Source: Cetobacterium sp. NK01
GTDB lineage: Bacteria > Fusobacteriota > Fusobacteriia > Fusobacteriales > Fusobacteriaceae
Assembly: GCF_024506395.1 (NCBI RefSeq)
Contig: NZ_JANIBO010000006.1
Coordinates: 1-64,000 of the forward strand
Direction of reading: 5' to 3'
Length of the DNA: 64,000 nucleotides
The notes under the pieces are model-generated. The model was not told the origin of the DNA, ran no database searches, and worked only from the letters and a program-made list of their open reading frames with translations. Each line of letters starts with the position of its first letter. The stretch's first letter is position 1. Below are positions 1-64,000 of this stretch, one piece after another. The translations under genes and the position numbers were made by a program.

Positions 1-220
1 TGTAGAATCTGTTGAGGATGCTTATAAAATAGCCAGTGAGGTAGGTAACATAAAACAAATAAATCTAGGAGGAGTTAAAGCGAGAGAAAATAGCAGAAAT
101 ATATCAAAAGCAGTAAATCTATTAGAAGAAGAAGAAAACCTTTTAAAAGAACTTCAAAGTTTGGGGATTGAGATTGAAATTAGACAAGTAGCTAATGATA
201 ATAAAGTTTTATATAGATAG
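1..220 (+). CDS. gfrB: PTS mannose-family IIB component, 3' part only (cut by window start)
   Basis: The first full codon is at position 2. This is the C-terminal 72 residues of the IIB protein that is complete at 29850-30311 and 59950-60411. The phosphorylated histidine lies in the missing N-terminal part. It ends 17 bases before the next PTS gene. Confidence 0.9.
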   Translation, partial: VESVEDAYKIASEVGNIKQINLGGVKARENSRNISKAVNLLEEEENLLKELQSLGIEIEIRQVANDNKVLYR

Positions 221-237
221 AAAAGGGGAGGATAGAT

Positions 238-1013
238 ATGATGCAAGCGTTTTTATTAGCATTAGTAGCTTTATAGCTCAATGTGATTATGCCTTAGGAA
301 CAAGCTTAATATCAAGACCAATAGTAACTGGATTTTTAACTGGGTTAGTAATGGGAGATTTAAAAATGGGATTGATAATGGGAGCTACATTGAGTTAGCT
401 TTTATTGGATCTTTTGCTATTGAGGAGCAATTCCACCAGATGTAGTAACTGGAGGAATATTAGGAGTTGCCTTTGCAATATCTTCAGGTGCTGGTGCAGA
501 GACAGCTTTATTACTGGCTTTACCAATTGCAACATTTACTTTAATTTTAAAAAATGCGTATCTAGGAGTTGTTATACCAATATTAGGTCACAAAGCTGAT
601 GAATATGCAGATGAGTGTAATATAAAAGGAATAGAGCGTATGCATTTAATATCTGGATTTGGTTTATCTTTGATGTTGGCGATAATAGTATTCTTTTCAT
701 ATTTATTAGGAAGTAATGCAGTATCTTTGGTTTTACAGGCAATACCAGAATTTATTCATAAAGGGTTAGCAATAACAACTGGATTAATTCCAACTCTTGG
801 ATTTGCAATGTTAGCAAAACTTCTTATAAATAAAAAGTTTTACCATATTTTTTCGTTGGCTTTGCCATTGCAATTTATACAGAAATCCCATTGACAGGAA
901 TTGCAATATTTGGTGCTTTAATAGCATTAATAACAGTAAATCCAATGTCACAAAGACAGTTAGTAGAAAGTGGAAACTTAAGTGAGAAAGGAGATGGTGA
1001 TGATGATTTCTAA
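238..1013 (+). pseudogene. gfrC: PTS mannose-family IIC component, frame broken in this copy
   Basis: Same gene as the intact copy at 60429-61208. Here single missing bases break the frame near 271, 391, 422 and 835. None of these deletions occurs in the third copy, so they are more likely base-calling errors than real mutations. See 60429 for function. Confidence 0.85.
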
Positions 1014-1827
1014 TAAAAAAGATGAGAAAGATATTACGCAAAAAGATTTGAATAAGATATTTTGGAGATCTTTTCAAATGGAATTCTCATGGAATTATGA
1101 AAGACAAATGAACTTAGCATATGCATATGCAATAGCACCAATATTAAAAAAAATATATACAAATAATCATTTAGAATTAAAAAAAGCTTTGAAACGTCAT
1201 CTAGAGTTTTTTAATATGACTCCTTGGATTGTAACTTTAATGTTAGGAATATCAGTAGTTCTTGAAGAGGAAAATAAAAAAGATGGAAAATTTGATGAAA
1301 ACTCAATAAATGGAATAAAAACAGCATTAATGGGTCCATTATCAGGGATAGGAGATTCTTTCTTTTGGGGAACTTTAAGATTAATTGCTACAGGAATAGG
1401 AACAGCTCTTTCATTACAAGGAAATATATTAGGTCCAATTCTATTTCTATTGGTATTTAATATTCCACATATAATTATAAGATATCTTTTTATAAAGTTA
1501 GGGTATAAATTGGGGGTAGACTTTTTAACTAAACTTGAAAAATCAGGAGCAGTTGAGAAAGTTACTTACGGAGCAACTATATTAGGATTAATTGTTATTG
1601 GAGGAATGACAGCAAGAATGGTAGATATTTCAACACCATTAGCTTTTAAAGCTGGAGGTTCAACAATAGAAGTCCAAAGTATTTTAGATGATATAATGCC
1701 TGGTATTTTAAAATTAGGAATGTTTGGTATTGTGTATTATTTATTAAATAAAAATGTTAAACCAATAACAATACTTTTAGGAATGGCAATATTTGGAATT
1801 TTTGGAACTTTAGTTGGGTTCTTTTAA
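1000..1827 (+). CDS. gfrD: PTS mannose-family IID component
   Basis: Intact copy of the membrane IID subunit (275 aa from ATG 1000), identical in frame to 61195-62022, where the full description is given. GAAAGGAG at 986-993 sits 6 bases before ATG 1000, which is preferred over an in-frame GTG at 982. The start overlaps the end of the IIC gene, as usual for this pair. Confidence 0.9.
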   Translation: MMISNKKDEKDITQKDLNKIFWRSFQMEFSWNYERQMNLAYAYAIAPILKKIYTNNHLELKKALKRHLEFFNMTPWIVTLMLGISVVLEEENKKDGKFDENSINGIKTALMGPLSGIGDSFFWGTLRLIATGIGTALSLQGNILGPILFLLVFNIPHIIIRYLFIKLGYKLGVDFLTKLEKSGAVEKVTYGATILGLIVIGGMTARMVDISTPLAFKAGGSTIEVQSILDDIMPGILKLGMFGIVYYLLNKNVKPITILLGMAIFGIFGTLVGFF

Positions 1828-1838
1828 GAGGTACATTT

Positions 1839-2891
1839 ATGGAAACTATGTTAAGCAATATACATGATGAAAAGAATACTTTAACAAATATTTTATTAAA
1901 TTTTCAAGATAAAAATAAACATATTTTAAAAGATTTAAAAGACTATAAAATTAAAGAATTTTAATTTTAGCTACAGGTTCTTCTATTAATGCGGCAATTA
2001 CAGTCAAATATTTTTACAAGATATATTAGAAGCTAAAGTTTTTATAGAGGAACCATTTATTTTTATGATTATGAAAAAATAGATTTAGATTTAGATTTGA
2101 TTATTGTAATATCTCAAAGTGGAAAAAGCACTTCAACAATAAATGCTACTAAAAAAATAGCTGAAGTATTAAAAAAACCAGTAATAATAGTAACAAACAA
2201 CTTAGAAAGTCCAATAACAAAATATTCACAATATATTTTAGATTTAAATATAGGTATAGAAAATGTAGGATTTGTAACTAAAGGTTTTAGTGGAACTGTT
2301 TTAAATTTATTCTTATTGGGAATAAATTTAAAAAATCAACATTTTAAATATTTTGAAGAGTTGGAATATTTGATTGGCAATATAAACACAGTTATTGAAA
2401 ATACTAATTTATACTTTGAAAAAAATAAAGAAATTTTAAGAGAGATAAATAGATTTATATGTTTAGGTTATGGGGCAAATTATGGTATTACAAAAGAGTT
2501 CGAAACTAAATTTACAGAAGTAGTTAGATGTCCATCAACAGGTCATGAACTTGAAGCATACATGCATGGACCATATTTAGAAGCTAATAATTCAAATGCC
2601 ATATTTTATTTAGATTTAGACTTAAATATTACATTGTCAAAAAGATTACATACTTTAAAAAAATATATGGAAAACTATATTGGATTTTCAACAATTATAA
2701 CAAATAGTAAGAATAAAGATAATCAAACAATAAATTTGAATGTATCAAAAGATGTAAATCCAAATTTTTTAACTTTGTTATATATTATTCCAATTCAAAT
2801 ATTAAGCTATAAAATAGCTCAAGAAAAGAAAATTAATGTAGAAAAAAGGTCTTTTACAGATTTTGATTTAGTTTTAAAAAGTAAAATATAA
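1839..2891 (+). pseudogene. gfrE: SIS-domain sugar-phosphate deglycase/isomerase, frame broken in this copy
   Basis: Corresponds to the intact 351-aa genes at 31931-32986 and 62034-63089. Bases are missing near 1954, 2015 and 2055, all in or near runs of A or T. From 2097 on the frame is clean to the stop. Probably a sequencing artefact. Confidence 0.85.
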
Positions 2892-2910
2892 ATATAAATG
2901 GAGGGTAATT

Positions 2911-3938
2911 ATGTCAAAATATTCTGAAATGTTAAAATTTAAAGAGGAGGAGTATAGAAATAGTGCTAAACTAATAGGGGAGGCTAAACCAATAGCAGAA
3001 GAAATTGCTAATATAGTTACAAAAGATGGATTTTCAAATATATTCTTTACAGCAGTTGGTGGTAGTTTAGCACCTTTAATGGCAATGGGAGAGATTGCAA
3101 AGCAACTTACAGAACTACCTGTTTATGTAGAACAAGCAGCGGAGTTAATTGTAAGAGGACATAAGGCTTTAACAGAAAAATCATTAATAATAACTTTGTC
3201 AAAATCAGGAGATACAAAAGAAACAGTTGAAATGGCTAAAAAATATAAAGAGATGGGGATAAGAGTTATATCTTGTACAAAAAATTTAGAATCTCCTTTA
3301 GCTAAAAATTCTAATTATGTAATTCCAATGAGACATGAAAATGGTGTAGAGTATGAGTATATGCTATTATTTTGGTTATTTTTTAAAATTTTGTCAAATA
3401 GAGGAGAGTTTTTAGATTATAATGATTTTGGAAATCAGTTATTATTACTACCAGAAAATTTATTAGAGGCAAAATTACAATTTGATCCTCAAGCAAAAGA
3501 AATGGCAAAACAGTATTATAAAGAGCCATATATGATTTGGATTGGTGGTGGTGAAGTGTGGGGTGAGACGTATCTATTCTCAATGTGTTTGTTAGAAGAG
3601 ATGCAATGGTTAAAAACAAAGTCTGTTACAAGTTCAGAATTTTTCCATGGAACTTTAGAAATAGTAGAGGAAGATACTTGTGTATTTTTAGTTAAAGGTT
3701 CTGGAAAAACAAGAGTTTTAGATGATAGAGCTGAAAAGTTTTTGAAGAAATATACAAAAAATTAAGTATTATTGATACATTAGATTTTAAATTAAACGGA
3801 ATAGATGAAAAATATCGTTGGATAATAGCACCAACAATTGCATCAACAGTTTTGGTTGATCGATTGGCGTTTCATTTTGAAGATAATACAAAACACTCTC
3901 TAGATATTAGAAGATATTATAGACAGTTTGATTATTAA
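2911..3938 (+). pseudogene. gfrF: FrlB/GfrF-like SIS-domain deglycase, frame broken in this copy
   Basis: Intact at 33006-34034 (342 aa), where it is described. This copy lacks one A of a seven-A run near 3763 and so stops 57 residues early. The rest of the 3' end is present out of frame up to 3938. Confidence 0.88.
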
Positions 3939-49059: not shown

Positions 49060-52000
49060 ATGAATTTTACAGAGGACGAATTAGAAGCAGCCTATCTTGA
49101 AATATTGGAAGATTTGGGATGGGAATGTATTGATGGTAGAAAATTAGAAAGAGATGACTACCATTCAGTAGTATTAGAAGAGAATTTAAGAGAAGCAGTT
49201 TATAACATAAATAAAGATATGCCAACCTCTACTAAAGAGGAAGCTATTAGAAAAGTAAAACAGCTTTCATATCCTAACTTGATTAAGAGTAATGAAGAGT
49301 TTCATAGTATGCTAGTCAATGGAGTGGATGTAGGAGAGTATAAAGACAAAGATGGGAACAAACGTTCTGGTGGAAAAGTATATTTAATAGATTTTAAAAA
49401 TATTAAAAAAAATGAGTTTCAAGCTATAAATCAATTTACAATAGTGGGAAACACTAAACGTAGACCAGATATAATACTATTTATCAATGGATTACCTCTT
49501 GTAGTTATAGAGTTAAAATCTCTAAGTAATGACAACGTAGGTATAAAAGAAGCATATACTCAAATTGAAAGATACAAATATGAGATTACAGATCTTTTTA
49601 AATATAACTCTTTTATCGTTATAAGTGATGGAGTTAATGCAAAAGCTGGAACTATATCATCAAGTGAAGAAAGATACATGAGCTTTAGAAGTATTGATGG
49701 AATTACAATAGCAGATACAAACTCTTTAATGATGGAAGTTTTAACTCGTGGAATGTTATCTAAGGAAAGAGTATTAGAATTAACTCATGACTATATCCTG
49801 TTTCTTCAAAGTAAAAACGAAAAAATAAAGATATTAGCTCAGTATCACCAGTTCTTTGCCATAAAAAAAGCACTGGAAAAGACAGCAGATGCTCGTAGCA
49901 ATGATGGAAAAATCGGTGTTGTTTGGCATACTCAAGGTAGTGGAAAATCTCTAACTATGACATTTTATACAGGGCAACTTATGAAAAAGTTTAACAATCC
50001 AACAGTTATAGTTTTAACTGATAGAAATGATTTGGACAATCAACTTTTCGGAACGTTCTCAAAAGCTCAAAGTTATCTAATAGAGACACCAAAACAAGCA
50101 GATGATAAAGATAGATTAAAAGAACTACTAAATGTAAGTAGTGGTGGAATAATATTCTCTACAATTCAGAAGTTTGCTCCTAAAGCTGGAGAAGTTGTAG
50201 AAGCTATTAGTACTAGAAATGACATATATATTATAGCCGATGAGGCTCATAGATCGCAGTATGGATTAGATGCTAAAATGGATGCAGATGGAAACAGTAA
50301 ATACGGGTATGCTAAACATATTCGTGATGCACTTCCCAATGCAAACTATATTGGATTTACAGGAACTCCTATAGACTTTGATGATAAATCTACAACTGCT
50401 GTATTTGGTGACTATATAGATACTTACGATATGACAAGAGCTGTTGAAGATGGAGCTACTGTTAAAATCTATTATGAAAATAGATTTATAAAGCTAGACA
50501 TTCCATATCCTGTTTTATCTGAACTTGATGGTGACTTTGAAGAGATTATGGAAGGTCAAGAAGAAATGACTGTTGAACGTACCAAAAAAGATATTACAAA
50601 AATGGAAGCTATTATTGGTTCTCAAAATAGAATAAGAACTTTGGCTCAGGATTTCATAGAACACTGGGAGATGAAAAAATAACTCTTTTGGAAAATGTAT
50701 GATAGTAGCTATGTCTCGTAAAATATGTGTGGATTTATATAATGAGATTGTAAGTTTAAGACCAGAGTGGCACAATGAAGATAAAGCTAAAGGTAAAATA
50801 AAAGTTGTTATGACAAGTGATATTAGTAAAGACCCTATGGAGTTTAAGCAACACTTTACAACAAAACAGGAAAGAGAAGAGCTCGCTAATAGAATGAAAG
50901 ATGACAGTGATGAGTTAGAGATTGTTATAGTTCGTGATATGTGGCTAACAGGGTTTGACGTTCCATCAATGCATACTATGTATATTGATAAACCTATGGT
51001 AGGGCATAACTTAATGCAAGCTATTGCAAGGGTAAATAGAGTATACAAAGATAAAAGTGGTGGCTTAGTTGTAGACTATATTGGAATAGGAGATGCACTT
51101 AAAAAAGCACTAAGACAATATACAGCAAACGATCAAAAGACAACAGGAGTAGATACAGAAAAAGCTGTGGCACTTATGATTGAACACTATGAGATTGTAA
51201 AAGAGATATTCCATCACTTTGATTATTCAAAATATAAAAGTGATAGTGCTTTAGAGCGTGCTAGAATTATTATAGAGGGGATGGATTACATCTTAGGTTT
51301 TGAAAATGATGAACCTGGAATTAAGAAAAGATTTATTGATAATGTTTTAGCACTGGCTAAGGCTCATTCTCTATGTATAACAACTCGTGATGGACAGGCT
51401 TTAAATGAGGAGATAAGTTACTTTAAAGCTGTTAAAGCTAGTGTTATTAAATTAGAAACTGAGGATAAAGATAATCCTAAAAAACTAACTCAGGCTCAGA
51501 TAAATGAAAAAATAGCTTCACTTATGGCTAAGACAATTATATCTGAAGATGTTATAGATGTTTATTCAGAGTTAGGACTTGATAATCCAGATATATCTAT
51601 TCTTTCAGATGAGTTTTTAAAAGAGGTTGAGAAGATAAAGTATAAAAACTTAGCTGTTGAGATGTTAAGAAAGCTAATAGAGGGTAAGATTAAATACTCT
51701 AGTAGAAAAAATCTAGTAGTAGCTGAGAAGTTCTCAGAAAGACTTCAAAAGGCTATGAGTTCTTATAGAAATAAGGCTTTAACAAGTTTAGAGATAATGG
51801 AAGAACTTATAAAGATGGCTAAGGAGTTTATGGAGACTCATAAAGAGGGAGATTCACTTGGTTTAACAGAGGATGAGGTAGCTTTCTATGATGCTTTAAC
51901 TCGTGATGAAAAAGTAAAAGAGATGTTAGGTGACGATATACTGGTACAGATAACAAAAGAGCTGACAGAGACTATTAAGAAAAGTATGACTATAGATTGG

Positions 52001-52147
52001 TATGATAAAGAGAGTGTACAAGCTCAAATGAGAAGATCTATAAGAAGACTTCTTAAAAAATTTGGTTATCCTCCAGAAGATACAGAGGATGCAACAGAAC
52101 TTGTGTTAAAACAAGCTAAGGTAATGTGTGAAGAGAGTAATATTTAA
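49060..52147 (+). pseudogene. hsdR: Type I restriction endonuclease subunit R, one frameshift in this copy
   Basis: About 1029 aa when the frame is restored, typical for HsdR. One shift near 50674 (A run). Unit 1 is intact at that place, so the real gene is probably whole. The N-terminal nuclease domain has RRPDIILFINGLPLVVIELKS near 135-152 (PD...ExK). The motor has Walker A GSGKS at about 293, DEAH at about 394, FTGTP near 424, and [18 protein letters not shown] near 645. The C-terminal helical domain binds the MS core. It translocates DNA with ATP and cuts far from unmethylated sites. RBS GGGGG lies 6 bases before the ATG. Last gene of the operon; a terminator follows. Confidence 0.93.
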
Positions 52148-52307: not shown

Positions 52308-52320
52308 AGACGAACCGTCT
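52308..52320. repeat. Palindrome AGACGAACCGTCT
   Basis: Unit-2 copy of 22218-22230. Confidence 0.7.
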
Positions 52321-52527: not shown

Positions 52528-52540
52528 AGACGAACCGTCT
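52528..52540. repeat. Palindrome AGACGAACCGTCT nested in a longer inverted repeat
   Basis: Unit-2 copy of 22438-22450, with TATCATGA/TCATGATA outer arms. Confidence 0.65.
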
Positions 52541-52644
52541 ACCTCATATTTTTTCATGATAAAATGCTCAATTACATCTCTAATTCATGCAATTCACGTG
52601 ATTTTTAAATAATCAACTTTGTTCCTGAAGGTGCAGAGCCAATT

Positions 52645-53706
52645 ATGAAATCATTAGAGTTCGCACAAGAATTAACTAAGAACTTATCAGAAACATTAAT
52701 CGTTTGGGGAGTTAAGCCACCTGAGTCTAACGATCCAGAAGAGTTAATCAAATATGCAAATGCTTTAGTTGAGTTACCTAAATTCAAAAGAGGATTTAAA
52801 AAGAGACTATCTGCATCTAAAGAGATTGACTTAGGAATGTTCTTATCGGTTGTAGTAGGTTCTCAAAAAGTTAATGGTATTGGTGGAGTTTCTAACTTCC
52901 CTCAAGTTAGAGTTTTCGATTATGAAAGAACTAACGGTGGAGCTGGAGAAGTAAAACCATTCACTGACAAGTTATTTGTTGAGTACACTGATGCTTTCAG
53001 AACTGGTATGAACGTTGAGTTAAGAACTTATGTTGGTGTTAAAGCTGTTGTGTTAAAAGCTAGAGTTTTATCTGCTAAAATTGTTTTAGGAAAAACTATG
53101 ATAACTTTAGATACAATGATTGATACTGCAATGTTCGACTTAAACGGATTTGATGTTATGATCGCAAATGTTGATTCTAAAGATAGAACTGGTTCTTACA
53201 CTGCTGCTGTATTTGCTGTTAAAGCATACGGTGAGAAAGATAGATCGCCAGTTGCACAAGAATTACCTGGTGCGTGTGATATTAACTTCCCTGGAGAAGC
53301 TCAAAGAATCTTATTAGCTAACAGATTCACTGTTGTTAATGTTGATCCTGTATCTGGAAAAGGAATAGTTGTTGATTGTCCTCTAATGACAAGAATCGAC
53401 TCTGACTTCAAAGAAAGATCGCAAATCGGTTGTGTACTGTACTTCCTGAAGAGATTAAGAGAAGTTGCTAACTCGAAGAAAGGTAAGAAGTTCCCTCAGA
53501 AAGAGCAAAAGGTTCTATTCGAAGATGAAATGAGAGACATCTTCAAGAATGAATTACCTCTAGCTGACGCTATCATATCTAAGTTTGAGTTCTTAGCTGA
53601 CATGTCTAAATTAGATTCTAAAGGATTCTTATCAGTTAAGTTCAAAGTAGTAGATACTAAGAAATTCAAAACTGCTGAGTTCTCTGGTGGATTAGCAAAA
53701 TTATAA
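52645..53706 (+). CDS. Phage tail-sheath-like protein, probably 5'-truncated, 353 aa
   Basis: Intact only here. The C-terminal 135 residues follow the pattern of contractile-tail sheath proteins: LLANRFTVVNVDPVSGKGIVV, then a conserved Thr-Arg step, then IGCVLYFLKRLREVA, and LADAIISKFEFLADMSKLDSKGFLSVKFKVVDT. The middle is rich in beta strands (FTDKLFVEYTDAFRTGMNVELR). Sheath proteins are usually longer, and the frame stays open upstream of ATG 52645 (FVPEGAEP), with no good RBS, so the 5' end seems lost. Codon choice favours TTC, AAC and GAC, unlike the neighbouring hsd genes, which indicates recent transfer from a phage-like source. The sheath assignment is pattern-based and uncertain. It is followed by a terminator and a second phage-like gene. 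Confidence 0.5.
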   Translation: MKSLEFAQELTKNLSETLIVWGVKPPESNDPEELIKYANALVELPKFKRGFKKRLSASKEIDLGMFLSVVVGSQKVNGIGGVSNFPQVRVFDYERTNGGAGEVKPFTDKLFVEYTDAFRTGMNVELRTYVGVKAVVLKARVLSAKIVLGKTMITLDTMIDTAMFDLNGFDVMIANVDSKDRTGSYTAAVFAVKAYGEKDRSPVAQELPGACDINFPGEAQRILLANRFTVVNVDPVSGKGIVVDCPLMTRIDSDFKERSQIGCVLYFLKRLREVANSKKGKKFPQKEQKVLFEDEMRDIFKNELPLADAIISKFEFLADMSKLDSKGFLSVKFKVVDTKKFKTAEFSGGLAKL

Positions 53707-53718
53707 TATTTGAAAAGT

Positions 53719-53750
53719 AGGTGTTGGCTGGGTTCAGCACCTCTTTTTTT
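53719..53750 (+). terminator. Terminator between the two phage-like genes
   Basis: AGGTGTTG/CAGCACCT stem with an eight-T run, as at 23628-23657. Confidence 0.82.
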
Positions 53751-53765
53751 AACAAAGGAGACAAT

Positions 53766-54110
53766 ATGGAAAACTTTTTCGATTATACGATAAGTGGTTT
53801 AGACGTTAAAACATATGTGCTTTTCAGAAGAGGATATATGAGCGACGTTGCTGGTTACAAAGGCGGACAGCAAGTAACTGGTCCCAATAGACAAACTGTT
53901 AGATTAGATGGTGACTGGGTAGCATATAAAGTTGGTATGCTAAGAATGTTACAATTCTCGCTACAGTTAGACGTTAAGGAAATCAATACTATGTCTGCTA
54001 CTAATGCACAAGGTCTTGCAAAAGGTAGAAGCATAGTAAACGGTAGAGCTGTATTCAGAAACACTGCTGTTGATACTTTGTCTGATTTGAAGAACGGCAT
54101 GTTAGTTTAA
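53766..54110 (+). CDS. Possible phage structural protein, 114 aa
   Basis: Identical to 23673-24017, where it is described. AAAGGAG lies 5 bases before the ATG. Confidence 0.6.
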   Translation: MENFFDYTISGLDVKTYVLFRRGYMSDVAGYKGGQQVTGPNRQTVRLDGDWVAYKVGMLRMLQFSLQLDVKEINTMSATNAQGLAKGRSIVNGRAVFRNTAVDTLSDLKNGMLV

Positions 54111-54221
54111 TTGCAAGTAAAGATGGTAGCCAAATGCGAAGAAGGGTTTATAAAATCAATAAATACAATACTTTTTAAGCCATTTCTCTCAATTTAAATC
54201 AGCAATTAAACTAACATGCCG
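54095..54221. repeat. Perfect 20-bp inverted repeat overlapping the 3' end of the 114-aa gene
   Basis: Arms 54095-54114 and 54202-54221, as at 24002-24128. Confidence 0.85.
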
Positions 54222-54561: not shown

Positions 54562-54743
54562 ATAAGGTAACCTAATGACTACTATAAGGTAACCTAATGA
54601 CTAATATAAGGTAACCTAATGACTACTATAAGGTAACCTAATGACTACTAAAGGTATATTTAGTAATTGACAAGTTACCTTTCAAGGTGCTATTCTTTGA
54701 TTGATAAATATTTTCATATAAGAAAGGTAACCTAATGACTACT
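54562..54743 (+). repeat. Iterons: four tandem 22-bp repeats plus a fifth next to rep
   Basis: Unit-2 copy of 24469-24650: tandem block 54562-54649 and fifth copy 54722-54743. Confidence 0.92.
54667..54696 (+). promoter_or_regulatory. rep promoter with embedded inverted half-iteron
   Basis: TTGACA, 18 bases, TATTCT, as at 24574-24603. Confidence 0.55.
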
Positions 54744-54773
54744 ATTAAAGTAAATTGTAAAAAGGGGGAGCGA

Positions 54774-55843
54774 ATGGACTTAATTAAATATCATAATGAT
54801 ATTAATAAATTGAAGTTGGGGAATTTTACAACAAAAGAATTAGATGTATTTTTTAGTCTATTATTAAAGTCTAGAGATGAAAAAACTAAAGATATAATAA
54901 TATCTTACTCTGAAATTAAAGAGTTAATACAAGAAGAACAAAACCAAGCTAGACTAACTAATTATATAAGAGGAGTATCAAGAAAATTAAAAGAATTAAA
55001 TCAAGAGATAGAATTACCAAATGGGGACATAGTTATTTTTGGGTTGTTTGATGTTATAACAATAAAACCAAAGGATAAAAGTATAGTCTTTTCAGTAAAT
55101 GAAATATTTAAATATATGATAGATGATTTAGTAAAAAATTTTACAATGTTTGATTTAAGAGAGCTTGTGAGTTTAAAAGGAATATATCCTAAAACATTGT
55201 TTAGACTATTAAAACAATGGGAGAGTACAGGAGAATATATTGTAAAAATAAATGAGTTTAGAGAAATAATGGGCATTCCTAACACTTATTTGATGAAAAA
55301 TATAAGGCAAAAGATTTTTAAACCTTGTTTAGAAGAATTGGGAAAAAACTTTGAAAGATTAGAACTTAAAGAATTGAAAAAAGGAAGAAATGTTGAAACG
55401 TTAGTTTTCACCTGGAAAGCTAAAAAGAAAAAGCAAGTTGAACAAAATTCAGTTATAAAGAAAAAGCAATTCTTAGGGGAAAAGGATTTGAAAGAATATC
55501 AAGATCAAAGCCAAGAGAGAAAAGAAAATAAATTAGTAAATCAAGTAGAAAAAATAGATAAAATTAAAATATCTAAAGCTGACTATGAAGAATTATATAA
55601 AAAATACCTGGAAGAAAATAGAGAAACACATAATCCGTTTATAAAAAAGGTTTTGATATAGCTAATAAATCTAAATATGAAATTGTAGAGTTTGAACAAC
55701 CTAAATTAGAGCAGACAAAAATATATACAGTTGAGGATATTCCTAAAGAGAAACTTTTGGATAAAAACGGCAATAAACTAAGAGGTATGTTACTAAATAA
55801 CAGAGTAAACAAAATATTAAAAGAAATGAATGCTACGGTATAA
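54774..55843 (+). pseudogene. rep: Rep_3-family replication initiator, frame broken in this copy
   Basis: One A is missing near 55649, so the last 65 codons are out of frame. The copies also differ near 55137 (Asn here, Ile-Phe context with Lys-Ile in unit 1). Intact at 24681-25751. Confidence 0.9.
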
Positions 55844-58063: not shown

Positions 58064-59296
58064 TTACTCTTTAAAAAAAATAGATATCCAACTTTTAAAG
58101 TAACTAGCGTTAAACTCAGCTAAAATAATAATTTTATTGTCTTCATAAAAACTTGTTTTATTCTTATTAAGATTATTAATAAATTTACTATATGGTGAGT
58201 CATCGTTTGCTTTTAGATTATCAGAGTTCAAAACTTTAAAAAAGTTAGAAACTAAATAAGCGTGAGATAAATTGACATTGTCAATTTCTTTAAAAAGAGT
58301 ATTTTTAAACATATTAAAATCATTAATTTTGATTTTTGTATTACTTATAAGTCTATATTTCTCAGAATAAGTTTTAAGTTTTGTATTATGTTTAGTTTGA
58401 ACATAGTTGTATTTTATAGACTCTATTAAAAATTTATCAAAATTACCGTTATTATGAATAAAAGAATAATAAATATTATTTTTTAAATATTCATAACTTT
58501 TAGATTCATAATATTTTTCAATTAATTGGTTTAAATATGTAGTGTTCTCAGAATAAGGTTTAATTAAATTAAAAAGAGCACTTAAATTTTTTTCTTTGAT
58601 AGTTTCAGGAGTACTAATAATTATAAATTTTATTCCAATCACTTTACTATTATTACATAAATTTTTCTTAATTTTGTGATATTCAATTTTATAGCCAGTA
58701 AAGGTTTCAATCTCTTTTAAAGCTGGGATTAAGATACTATTTTCAAGATCATAAAATCGAGAATACTTATTTTCAAAGTCAATTATATTTTTAAGATTTT
58801 CTAGAGAAATATCTATAGTGGAATTATTATACATAGTTTTAATAAAAAGAAATAAATTTCTTGAATAAGATGAATTAAAACTTAAAAGTATATTTAATTG
58901 AAAAAGTTTAAAATCATTTTTTTCAGTATTAAAAATTTTATAAAAATCATTGTTAATATTTAATTCATAGGTATCATTATTTTTTAAGTATGAAGATATG
59001 ATACATAAAGATAATTCAAAAGAGTTAAGTTCAGATTTTTCATAAGTTATGTTAATTCGTTTAGAGGTAAATTTAGTTAAAAAAGAATCGATAGTATCAA
59101 ATTGACTTAAATTCAAAATTTTTAAAAATTTTGATTTTGTTAAAGTTATTTTTCTTAAATCCTTTTCAATTATTTCTTTTATTATATACTCTTTGAGCAA
59201 TATATCATTTTTAGAAAATCGTTTTGAAAAAGTTACCTTGCTATTCATAAATGAGTAATGTGTAAAATTTTTTTCAATAATTAGATTTTTTTTCAT
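58064..59296 (-). CDS. Second Rep_3-family replication initiator, inside the IS-bounded segment
   Basis: 410 aa from ATG 59296, with AAAGGAG 8 bases upstream. The twin winged-helix layout of Rep_3 proteins is visible: FDTIDSFLTKFTSKRINITYEKS near 67, LNILLSFNSSYSRNLFLFIKTMY near 137, ISLENLKNIIDFENKYSRFYDLENSILIPALKEIE near 165, then TGYKIEYHKIKK near 200. The long C-terminal part is Asn/Lys-rich and variable. It differs clearly from the iteron-linked Rep at 24681. I see no iterons beside it. Its stop lies 3 bases from the IS2 end, so an attached origin may have been lost. It is divergent from gfrA across 214 bases. Intact only here. Function as an active initiator is doubtful without an origin. 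Confidence 0.75.
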   Translation of the reverse strand: MKKNLIIEKNFTHYSFMNSKVTFSKRFSKNDILLKEYIIKEIIEKDLRKITLTKSKFLKILNLSQFDTIDSFLTKFTSKRINITYEKSELNSFELSLCIISSYLKNNDTYELNINNDFYKIFNTEKNDFKLFQLNILLSFNSSYSRNLFLFIKTMYNNSTIDISLENLKNIIDFENKYSRFYDLENSILIPALKEIETFTGYKIEYHKIKKNLCNNSKVIGIKFIIISTPETIKEKNLSALFNLIKPYSENTTYLNQLIEKYYESKSYEYLKNNIYYSFIHNNGNFDKFLIESIKYNYVQTKHNTKLKTYSEKYRLISNTKIKINDFNMFKNTLFKEIDNVNLSHAYLVSNFFKVLNSDNLKANDDSPYSKFINNLNKNKTSFYEDNKIIILAEFNASYFKSWISIFFKE

Positions 59297-59949: not shown

Positions 59950-60411
59950 ATGATTCTTTTATTAAGGGTAGATCATAGATTGTTACATGGACAAGTTGCA
60001 TTTTCATGGATACAAAATTTAGGAGCAGATTGTATATTGATAGCTAATGACAGTGTAGTAAATGATGAATTAAGAAAAACAACAATGAAGTTAGCAAAAC
60101 CACAAGAAGTAAAATTAGTAATAAAAAATATAGAGGACTCAATACAAGCTTTAAAATCTGGTGTTACAGATAAATATAAACTTTTTATAGTTGTAGAATC
60201 TGTTGAGGATGCTTATAAAATAGCCAGTGAGGTAGGTAACATAAAACAAATAAATCTAGGAGGAGTTAAAGCGAGAGAAAATAGCAGAAATATATCAAAA
60301 GCAGTAAATCTATTAGAAGAAGAAGAAAACCTTTTAAAAGAACTTCAAAGTTTGGGGATTGAGATTGAAATTAGACAAGTAGCTAATGATAATAAAGTTT
60401 TATATAGATAG
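59950..60411 (+). CDS. gfrB: PTS mannose-family IIB component
   Basis: Intact, identical product to 29850-30311, with the phospho-acceptor His13. Confidence 0.9.
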   Translation: MILLLRVDHRLLHGQVAFSWIQNLGADCILIANDSVVNDELRKTTMKLAKPQEVKLVIKNIEDSIQALKSGVTDKYKLFIVVESVEDAYKIASEVGNIKQINLGGVKARENSRNISKAVNLLEEEENLLKELQSLGIEIEIRQVANDNKVLYR

Positions 60412-60428
60412 AAAAGGGGAGGATAGAT

Positions 60429-61208
60429 ATGATGCAAGCATTTTTATTAGCATTAGTAGCTTTTATAGCTCAATGTGATTATGCCTTAGGAACAAGCTTA
60501 ATATCAAGACCAATAGTAACTGGATTTTTAACTGGGTTAGTAATGGGAGATTTAAAAATGGGATTGATAATGGGAGCTACATTGGAGTTAGCTTTTATTG
60601 GATCTTTTGCTATTGGAGGAGCAATTCCACCAGATGTAGTAACTGGAGGAATATTAGGAGTTGCCTTTGCAATATCTTCAGGTGCTGGTGCAGAGACAGC
60701 TTTATTACTGGCTTTACCAATTGCAACATTTACTTTAATTTTAAAAAATGCGTATCTAGGAGTTGTTATACCAATATTAGGTCACAAAGCTGATGAATAT
60801 GCAGATGAGTGTAATATAAAAGGAATAGAGCGTATGCATTTAATATCTGGATTTGGTTTATCTTTGATGTTGGCGATAATAGTATTCTTTTCATATTTAT
60901 TAGGAAGTAATGCAGTATCTTTGGTTTTACAGGCAATACCAGAATTTATTCATAAAGGGTTAGCAATAACAACTGGATTAATTCCAACTCTTGGATTTGC
61001 AATGTTAGCAAAACTTCTTATAAATAAAAAAGTTTTACCATATTTTTTCGTTGGCTTTGCCATTGCAATTTATACAGAAATCCCATTGACAGGAATTGCA
61101 ATATTTGGTGCTTTAATAGCATTAATAACAGTAAATCCAATGTCACAAAGACAGTTAGTAGAAAGTGGAAACTTAAGTGAGAAAGGAGATGGTGATGATG
61201 ATTTCTAA
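60429..61208 (+). CDS. gfrC: PTS mannose-family IIC component
   Basis: 259 aa and the only intact copy. A membrane permease subunit that, with IID, carries the sugar across the membrane while IIB phosphorylates it. Mostly hydrophobic, with about six to seven spans. Family signatures: SRPIVTGFLTGLVMGDLKMGLIMGATLELAF near 26-56, and GGAIPPDVVTGGILG near 62-76. A cytoplasmic-looking loop KADEYADECNIKGIERMH lies near 121. It ends in a charged tail. GGGGAGG lies before tandem ATG codons at 60429/60432. It overlaps the IID start by 14 bases. The other two copies carry frameshifts at other places, so this one shows the true frame. Confidence 0.92.
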   Translation: MMQAFLLALVAFIAQCDYALGTSLISRPIVTGFLTGLVMGDLKMGLIMGATLELAFIGSFAIGGAIPPDVVTGGILGVAFAISSGAGAETALLLALPIATFTLILKNAYLGVVIPILGHKADEYADECNIKGIERMHLISGFGLSLMLAIIVFFSYLLGSNAVSLVLQAIPEFIHKGLAITTGLIPTLGFAMLAKLLINKKVLPYFFVGFAIAIYTEIPLTGIAIFGALIALITVNPMSQRQLVESGNLSEKGDGDDDF

Positions 61209-62022
61209 TAAAAAAGATGAGAAAGATATTACGCAAAAAGATTTGAATAAGATATTTTGGAGATCTTTTCAAATGGAATTCTCATGGAATTATGAAAGAC
61301 AAATGAACTTAGCATATGCATATGCAATAGCACCAATATTAAAAAAAATATATACAAATAATCATTTAGAATTAAAAAAAGCTTTGAAACGTCATCTAGA
61401 GTTTTTTAATATGACTCCTTGGATTGTAACTTTAATGTTAGGAATATCAGTAGTTCTTGAAGAGGAAAATAAAAAAGATGGAAAATTTGATGAAAACTCA
61501 ATAAATGGAATAAAAACAGCATTAATGGGTCCATTATCAGGGATAGGAGATTCTTTCTTTTGGGGAACTTTAAGATTAATTGCTACAGGAATAGGAACAG
61601 CTCTTTCATTACAAGGAAATATATTAGGTCCAATTCTATTTCTATTGGTATTTAATATTCCACATATAATTATAAGATATCTTTTTATAAAGTTAGGGTA
61701 TAAATTGGGGGTAGACTTTTTAACTAAACTTGAAAAATCAGGAGCAGTTGAGAAAGTTACTTACGGAGCAACTATATTAGGATTAATTGTTATTGGAGGA
61801 ATGACAGCAAGAATGGTAGATATTTCAACACCATTAGCTTTTAAAGCTGGAGGTTCAACAATAGAAGTCCAAAGTATTTTAGATGATATAATGCCTGGTA
61901 TTTTAAAATTAGGAATGTTTGGTATTGTGTATTATTTATTAAATAAAAATGTTAAACCAATAACAATACTTTTAGGAATGGCAATATTTGGAATTTTTGG
62001 AACTTTAGTTGGGTTCTTTTAA
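61195..62022 (+). CDS. gfrD: PTS mannose-family IID component
   Basis: 275 aa from ATG 61195, after GAAAGGAG. The partner of IIC in the membrane. An amphipathic N-terminal part (FWRSFQMEFSWNYERQMNLAYAYAIAPIL, residues 21-49) is followed by FNMTPWIVTLMLGISVVLEEEN near 70-91 and the hallmark MGPLSGIGDSFFWGTLRLIATGIG near 108-131. The C-terminal half has three to four membrane spans, ending GIFGTLVGFF. Glu-Glu after the LGIS segment and the GIGDS loop are usual in this family. It precedes gfrE by 11 bases. Intact here and at 1000-1827. Confidence 0.93.
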   Translation: MMISNKKDEKDITQKDLNKIFWRSFQMEFSWNYERQMNLAYAYAIAPILKKIYTNNHLELKKALKRHLEFFNMTPWIVTLMLGISVVLEEENKKDGKFDENSINGIKTALMGPLSGIGDSFFWGTLRLIATGIGTALSLQGNILGPILFLLVFNIPHIIIRYLFIKLGYKLGVDFLTKLEKSGAVEKVTYGATILGLIVIGGMTARMVDISTPLAFKAGGSTIEVQSILDDIMPGILKLGMFGIVYYLLNKNVKPITILLGMAIFGIFGTLVGFF

Positions 62023-62033
62023 GAGGTACATTT

Positions 62034-63089
62034 ATGGAAACTATGTTAAGCAATATACATGATGAAAAGAATACTTTAACAAATATTTTATTAAATTTTC
62101 AAGATAAAAATAAACATATTTTAAAAGATTTAAAAGACTATAAAATTAAAAGAATTTTAATTTTAGCTACAGGTTCTTCTATTAATGCGGCAATTACAGT
62201 CAAATATTTTTTACAAGATATATTAGAAGCTAAAGTTTTTATAGAGGAACCATCTATTTATTATGATTATGAAAAAATAGATTTAGATTTAGATTTGATT
62301 ATTGTAATATCTCAAAGTGGAAAAAGCACTTCAACAATAAATGCTACTAAAAAAATAGCTGAAGTATTAAAAAAACCAGTAATAATAGTAACAAACAACT
62401 TAGAAAGTCCAATAACAAAATATTCACAATATATTTTAGATTTAAATATAGGTATAGAAAATGTAGGATTTGTAACTAAAGGTTTTAGTGGAACTGTTTT
62501 AAATTTATTCTTATTGGGAATAAATTTAAAAAATCAACATTTTAAATATTTTGAAGAGTTGGAATATTTGATTGGCAATATAAACACAGTTATTGAAAAT
62601 ACTAATTTATACTTTGAAAAAAATAAAGAAATTTTAAGAGAGATAAATAGATTTATATGTTTAGGTTATGGGGCAAATTATGGTATTACAAAAGAGTTCG
62701 AAACTAAATTTACAGAAGTAGTTAGATGTCCATCAACAGGTCATGAACTTGAAGCATACATGCATGGACCATATTTAGAAGCTAATAATTCAAATGCCAT
62801 ATTTTATTTAGATTTAGACTTAAATATTACATTGTCAAAAAGATTACATACTTTAAAAAAATATATGGAAAACTATATTGGATTTTCAACAATTATAACA
62901 AATAGTAAGAATAAAGATAATCAAACAATAAATTTGAATGTATCAAAAGATGTAAATCCAAATTTTTTAACTTTGTTATATATTATTCCAATTCAAATAT
63001 TAAGCTATAAAATAGCTCAAGAAAAGAAAATTAATGTAGAAAAAAAGATTTTTACAGATTTTGATTTAGTTTTAAAAAGTAAAATATAA
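62034..63089 (+). CDS. gfrE: SIS-domain sugar-phosphate deglycase/isomerase, GfrE-like
   Basis: Second intact copy, 351 aa; described at 31931. It has Tyr where that copy has Phe near residue 76. Confidence 0.75.
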   Translation: METMLSNIHDEKNTLTNILLNFQDKNKHILKDLKDYKIKRILILATGSSINAAITVKYFLQDILEAKVFIEEPSIYYDYEKIDLDLDLIIVISQSGKSTSTINATKKIAEVLKKPVIIVTNNLESPITKYSQYILDLNIGIENVGFVTKGFSGTVLNLFLLGINLKNQHFKYFEELEYLIGNINTVIENTNLYFEKNKEILREINRFICLGYGANYGITKEFETKFTEVVRCPSTGHELEAYMHGPYLEANNSNAIFYLDLDLNITLSKRLHTLKKYMENYIGFSTIITNSKNKDNQTINLNVSKDVNPNFLTLLYIIPIQILSYKIAQEKKINVEKKIFTDFDLVLKSKI

Positions 63090-63108
63090 ATATAAATGGA
63101 GGGTAATT

Positions 63109-64000
63109 ATGTCAAAATATTCTGAAATGTTAAAATTTAAAGAGGAGGAGTATAGAAATAGTGCTAAACTAATAGGGGAGGCTAAACCAATAGCAGAAGA
63201 AATTGCTAATATAGTTACAAAAGATGGATTTTCAAATATATTCTTTACAGCAGTTGGTGGTAGTTTAGCACCTTTAATGGCAATGGGAGAGATTGCAAAG
63301 CAACTTACAGAACTACCTGTTTATGTAGAACAAGCAGCGGAGTTAATTGTAAGAGGACATAAGGCTTTAACAGAAAAATCATTAATAATAACTTTGTCAA
63401 AATCAGGAGATACAAAAGAAACAGTTGAAATGGCTAAAAAATATAAAGAGATGGGGATAAGAGTTATATCTTGTACAAAAAATTTAGAATCTCCTTTAGC
63501 TAAAAATTCTAATTATGTAATTCCAATGAGACATGAAAATGGTGTAGAGTATGAGTATATGCTATTATTTTGGTTATTTTTTAAAATTTTGTCAAATAGA
63601 GGAGAGTTTTTAGATTATAATGATTTTGGAAATCAGTTATTATTACTACCAGAAAATTTATTAGAGGCAAAATTACAATTTGATCCTCAAGCAAAAGAAA
63701 TGGCAAAACAGTATTATAAAGAGCCATATATGATTTGGATTGGTGGTGGTGAAGTGTGGGGTGAGACGTATCTATTCTCAATGTGTTTGTTAGAAGAGAT
63801 GCAATGGTTAAAAACAAAGTCTGTTACAAGTTCAGAATTTTTCCATGGAACTTTAGAAATAGTAGAGGAAGATACTTGTGTATTTTTAGTTAAAGGTTCT
63901 GGAAAAACAAGAGTTTTAGATGATAGAGCTGAAAAGTTTTTGAAGAAATATACAAAAAAATTAAGTATTATTGATACATTAGATTTTAAATTAAACGGAA
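63109..64000 (+). CDS. gfrF: FrlB/GfrF-like deglycase, cut by window end
   Basis: First 297 codons of the gene that is complete at 33006-34034. The A run that is short in unit 1 has seven A here, supporting the intact frame. Confidence 0.85.
   Translation, partial: MSKYSEMLKFKEEEYRNSAKLIGEAKPIAEEIANIVTKDGFSNIFFTAVGGSLAPLMAMGEIAKQLTELPVYVEQAAELIVRGHKALTEKSLIITLSKSGDTKETVEMAKKYKEMGIRVISCTKNLESPLAKNSNYVIPMRHENGVEYEYMLLFWLFFKILSNRGEFLDYNDFGNQLLLLPENLLEAKLQFDPQAKEMAKQYYKEPYMIWIGGGEVWGETYLFSMCLLEEMQWLKTKSVTSSEFFHGTLEIVEEDTCVFLVKGSGKTRVLDDRAEKFLKKYTKKLSIIDTLDFKLNG

Follow-up and report, generated by a model that had tools for sequence, protein, structure and literature searches.

Phage-plasmids swap genes more often with plasmids than with phages, direct exchange between plasmids and phages being rarer (PMC10879196). 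In the large 0305phi8-36-like phages with which the present locus can be compared, Bacillus phage KLEB27-3, Moorella phage MTATph1 and Acinetobacter phage ME3, a tail sheath gene is followed by tandem tube genes, most clearly in KLEB27-3. They share this arrangement and a tube profile match with our locus and its nearest relative, and a related terminase with the latter, but they are very distant from both, the sheath similarity being weak and C-terminal.

The nearest relative was recovered by blastn against PLSDB, in which the single long match was plasmid p3 of Cetobacterium somerae (NZ_CP143322.1, 188.7 kb) and no other plasmid matched. This replicon carries genes for a terminase large subunit (phrog_2, 4e-25), a portal (phrog_9232, 4e-15), a maturation protease and a major-capsid-like protein, and also encodes a PhuZ-like tubulin, ParA, a sigma-70-like factor, GroEL, a DnaB-like helicase, an amidase and MazG, among others. 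With structural and packaging genes as well as partition genes on a circular replicon, p3 is thus, as judged from its gene content, a large phage-plasmid. Its terminase shows 22-27% identity to those of MTATph1, KLEB27-3 and ME3 and is also distantly related to those of 200-240-kb plasmids of Bacillus, Cytobacillus and Paenibacillus; the two of these plasmids that we inspected carry capsid and ParM genes. The literature searched contained no description of a p3-like phage-plasmid group. Also encoded on p3 (L019:26232-30830, L017:43119-48552) are IscB, a type I restriction system and, behind a transposase of the ISSag10 type, a predicted determinant of lincosamide resistance, lnu(C). A 621-aa p3 protein (L018:17120-18982), with no Pfam match but with DNA relatives on host contigs C2, C3, C4, C5, C7 and C8, may be a so far overlooked factor of plasmid replication or maintenance.

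The DNA analysed here (the window) is bases 1-64,000 of contig C6, which measures 65,419 bp. Because self-comparison matched bases 1-33,897 to bases 30,092-64,000 at 99.7% (29 mismatches, 53 gap openings) and bases 1-3,801 to bases 60,192-64,000, the contig is a circle of 30,091 bp (about 30.09 kb) repeated about 2.17 times head to tail, with small errors of the long-read type. The window itself holds about 2.1 tandem copies of this circle, so that the phage fragment described below is seen twice (Table 1). Its two copies are three single-base indels apart over 2.6 kb; one of these indels puts the sheath ORF of the first copy out of frame, and it is the reading frame of the second with which the p3 alignment agrees. 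All features of the window are present at least twice, frameshifts between the circle copies being sequencing errors, and some genes that look split, such as that for the R subunit of the type I system, may be artefacts. The concatemeric nature of the window bears on any other finding drawn from it.

Table 1. Positions in the window of the phage-derived fragment, its parts and its plasmid flanks.
Feature	Position	Strand	Remarks
Second occurrence of the phage fragment	22514-24001	+	concatenated contig (self-comparison)
Left flank: R subunit of a type I restriction system, appearing as two ORFs	49060-52147	+	homology to other Cetobacterium loci ends at ~52150
Phage-derived fragment, collinear with p3 (NZ_CP143322.1) 113053-111565	52604-54094	+	blastn 79.6% over 1.49 kb; ends uncertain by ~10 bp
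Probable tail sheath gene, 5'-truncated, residues ~517-862 of 862	52645-53706	+	82-83% aa identity to P0001 of p3; sheath-like profile ranking
Intergenic (sheath/tube) terminator-like hairpin, with U-tract	53719-53750	+	also in p3 and the MAG relative
Tail tube-like gene, 3'-truncated, first ~109 of 216 codons	53766-54110	+	84% aa identity to P0002 of p3; profile match to jumbo-phage tube proteins
Inverted repeat, left arm, perfect 20 bp, at the right junction	54095-54114	+	
Inverted repeat, right arm	54202-54221	+	
Plasmid-origin iterons of 22 bp, in the non-phage flank	54561-54745	+	
Rep3-family replication initiator (flank)	54735-55661	+	Pfam PF01051 1e-18

The fragment lies in the 30-kb plasmid between a type I restriction operon and a Rep3/iteron origin. 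Of an 862-codon gene it retains the last ~354 codons, and of the 216-codon gene that follows, the first ~109, with a terminator-like hairpin between the two. Fragment and p3 have in common collinear sheath and tube genes, 79.6% nucleotide identity and the same intergenic hairpin; in p3, however, the genes are full-length and belong to a complete 188.7-kb predicted phage-plasmid, whereas the fragment covers 1.49 kb and both of its genes are cut. The two ORFs of 353 and 114 aa described in a previous sequence-only reading were recovered, as was the GRSIVNGRAVF motif in the shorter protein. That reading took the first gene to be 5'-truncated, which the comparison with the 862-aa p3 protein bore out: the match covers residues ~509-862 of that protein, the ATG of the ORF is an internal Met of the full-length gene, and a TAA stands in the same frame just upstream of the fragment. 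It missed the 3' truncation of the second ORF (109 of 216 residues). This ORF, of 114 aa from its ATG at 53766 or, with the GTG at 53721 as start, 129 aa, retains its ribosome-binding site (AAAGGAGACAATATG) and after ~109 codons runs through plasmid-derived or uncertain codons to a TAA within the inverted repeat at which it had been said to end. The similarity to p3 stops at 54094, at most at ~54104, and the right cut falls at this perfect repeat, the 20-bp arms of which are 100% complementary over an 87-nt spacer (fold z=-5.5). The repeat, without a second copy in its own genome or in the genus Cetobacterium, may reflect foldback synthesis at the time of joining or, alternatively, may belong to the origin region. 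As candidates, an integron attC site was rejected by eye for its absent core motifs and a MITE for the absent second copy. Rfam gave no real match in the fragment region or the whole window, and no insertion sequence borders the fragment; an IS256-family transposase is encoded 2.6 kb away.

Comparison of the 216-aa p3 protein (P0002) with the tube proteins of the three large phages gave an hhalign probability of 92% and E=5.5e-7 for that single comparison. Three more p3 genes behind it match phrog_9206 (best 7e-17), a family that also includes the tube proteins of KLEB27-3, its PHROG label of "major head protein" being in conflict with their tube annotation in that phage. As placed by these sequence comparisons, the 216-aa protein belongs with the jumbo-phage tube proteins, and the second ORF is the predicted N-terminal half of such a protein. 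Neither the window proteins nor their alignment gave anything significant against Pfam, PHROGs, NCBIfam or PDB sequences, and the 862-aa protein matches no family directly. When a profile of the relatives of the 862-aa protein was compared with 101 ORFs of the three phages, the annotated sheaths ranked 1, 3 and 5, at hhalign probabilities of only 2-18% with the full profile and 28% at best with its C-terminal part. These alignments span ~100 residues near the C-terminal ends, and the sheath profile A5 in reverse finds the Afp3 sheath. The order of a sheath gene followed by tandem tube paralogues was found in p3, in the Cetobacterium MAG G009, in G004 and in KLEB27-3 (gp025-gp028), and in outline in MTATph1. 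Taking the weak C-terminal profile matches together with this conserved order (sheath-tube-tube-tube), we regard the 862-aa protein as probably a contractile tail sheath; the resemblance claimed for the end of the 353-aa protein is thus backed by gene order and by weak, correctly placed profile matches, which leave it probable, short of proven. AlphaFold models were too poor for use (pLDDT 35 and 44), and Foldseek gave no match below E 0.4; its best match, a putative tail lysozyme (E=0.43), was set aside as evidence. A 386-aa gene of p3, two genes upstream of the 862-aa gene, was ruled out by hhalign as a second sheath. A hairpin stands between sheath and tube genes in three phage lineages (window 53719-53750; L001:21111-21147; L009:393-424), with stem changes that are apparently compensating, and is possibly an attenuator setting the tube:sheath ratio.

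Among the data searched, relatives of the fragment were limited to Cetobacterium. Apart from those on p3, they turned up in just two of the 98 Fusobacteriota genomes, the host not counted: G009 (two contigs, 59-69%) and G004 (~31-34%). In both, the sheath relatives are followed by tube-like genes. The sheath was not found among the 50,697 phage records of INPHARED at the tblastn level, and in scans of IMG/VR neither the sheath, nor the terminase of p3, nor an exact copy of the hairpin turned up. The sole plasmid homologue thus resides on the phage-like p3, and homologues on many plasmids without phage links were not encountered.

Codon use set the two ORFs apart from their surroundings. C-ending codons for Phe, Asn and Asp make up 0.60 in both ORFs as against 0.10-0.28 in eleven neighbouring genes, a contrast already perceived in the sequence-only reading, and GC3 is 0.26-0.31 as against 0.11-0.23. 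The preference then reported for TTC (24/30) and AAC (13/21) held; that for GAC (12/31) held only in part, this codon being raised but in the minority. The p3 genes examined have a less C-ending bias than the fragment (0.17-0.35), and the donor was therefore probably a phage other than p3, with a different codon style. Between fragment and p3, dN is 0.06-0.13 and dS 1-1.9, a low ratio. Taking the MAG as outgroup, we counted 13/12, 4/5 and 3/6 amino-acid changes unique to one branch (window/p3), without excess on that of the window, and both truncated frames are still open. This lack of measurable decay fits a recent capture and would also fit maintenance.

About 450 bp of non-coding DNA without relatives of note separate the restriction gene from the fragment. 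Within the plasmid, the palindrome AGACGAACCGTCT occurs twice (52308-52320 and 52528-52540), 220 bp apart and with mutually inverted outer flanks; among the genus genomes searched it was found in its own plasmid only. The plasmid also encodes a second, unlike Rep3-family initiator (58064-59296), which, with the PTS genes next to it, shares 98.6% identity with part of NZ_CP143320.1, a 664-kb C. somerae plasmid. The presence of two Rep3 initiators suggests that the 30-kb plasmid arose by fusion of two replicons.

We consider it very probable that the sheath-tube junction (~1.49 kb) of a p3-like large contractile-tailed Cetobacterium phage or phage-plasmid was captured by the 30-kb plasmid and is now largely inert, in line with the captured phage fragment proposed earlier. 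Homology to and near-collinearity with a phage-plasmid tail operon, truncation of both genes, foreign codon use and the lack of any other phage part in the host genome are direct observations. The donor would have been a sister of p3, at ~80% nucleotide identity and with a different codon bias, a broken DNA end of which would have been joined into the plasmid by illegitimate (non-homologous) recombination between the restriction operon and the origin; the fragment would since have remained as a remnant without function. As in the exchange described between phage-plasmids and plasmids (PMC10879196), phage-plasmid genes would have moved into a plasmid, but here in the form of a broken piece, not a whole gene, and with no mobile element evident at either end.

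When the host genome was probed with 20 kb of p3, no further phage structural part came to light; the probe also matched a plasmid backbone gene (C2, C3, C4, C5, C7 and C8) and shorter stretches. The occurrence of a p3 backbone gene on other plasmids of this host would agree with the 30-kb plasmid being a reduced former phage-plasmid and the fragment its last phage part; we find this improbable, since the rest of the plasmid gave only short, chance-like matches to p3 and no other notable homology, the codon contrast between the fragment and the rest is sharp, and the Rep3 replicons and the R-M system are of plasmid type. The least probable explanation is an assembly chimera, with phage reads built into the plasmid contig. 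Concatemeric misassembly of this contig is demonstrated, and its two circle passes may stem from the same reads, but the fragment stands in both passes with identical junctions and only single-base indels between them, and no other phage DNA was found in the assembly.

The co-opted role allowed for in the sequence-only reading gained no positive evidence. In such a role the truncated sheath and tube proteins would act as assembly inhibitors, poisoning the tails of p3-like phages and protecting the plasmid host. Open frames, the intact ribosome-binding site of the tube gene, the window branch without decay and the adjoining restriction system would suit this reading; it is nevertheless very unlikely, as promoter signals are not above chance (12 found, 12.0 expected), a hairpin terminator stands before the tube gene, and the sheath ORF starts at an internal Met. 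The truncated pair, moreover, has no second copy in the 98 Fusobacteriota genomes or the PLSDB plasmids, a contig scan giving only a MAG relative. That the pair is a domesticated interference cassette against p3-like tail assembly, a plasmid-borne defence beside the restriction system, is slightly less likely still. Co-option is needless as an explanation of the fragment.

The fragment very probably captured by the 30-kb plasmid is thus a genuine but ordinary acquisition, recording the meeting of a Cetobacterium plasmid with a group of large contractile-tailed phage-plasmids whose distant relatives are reached through the terminase only. Its chief value is as a pointer to a new family of big phages living as plasmids in a fish-gut bacterium, and p3 is worth study: it would be a large phage-plasmid in Fusobacteriota, and it encodes a PhuZ-like tubulin.
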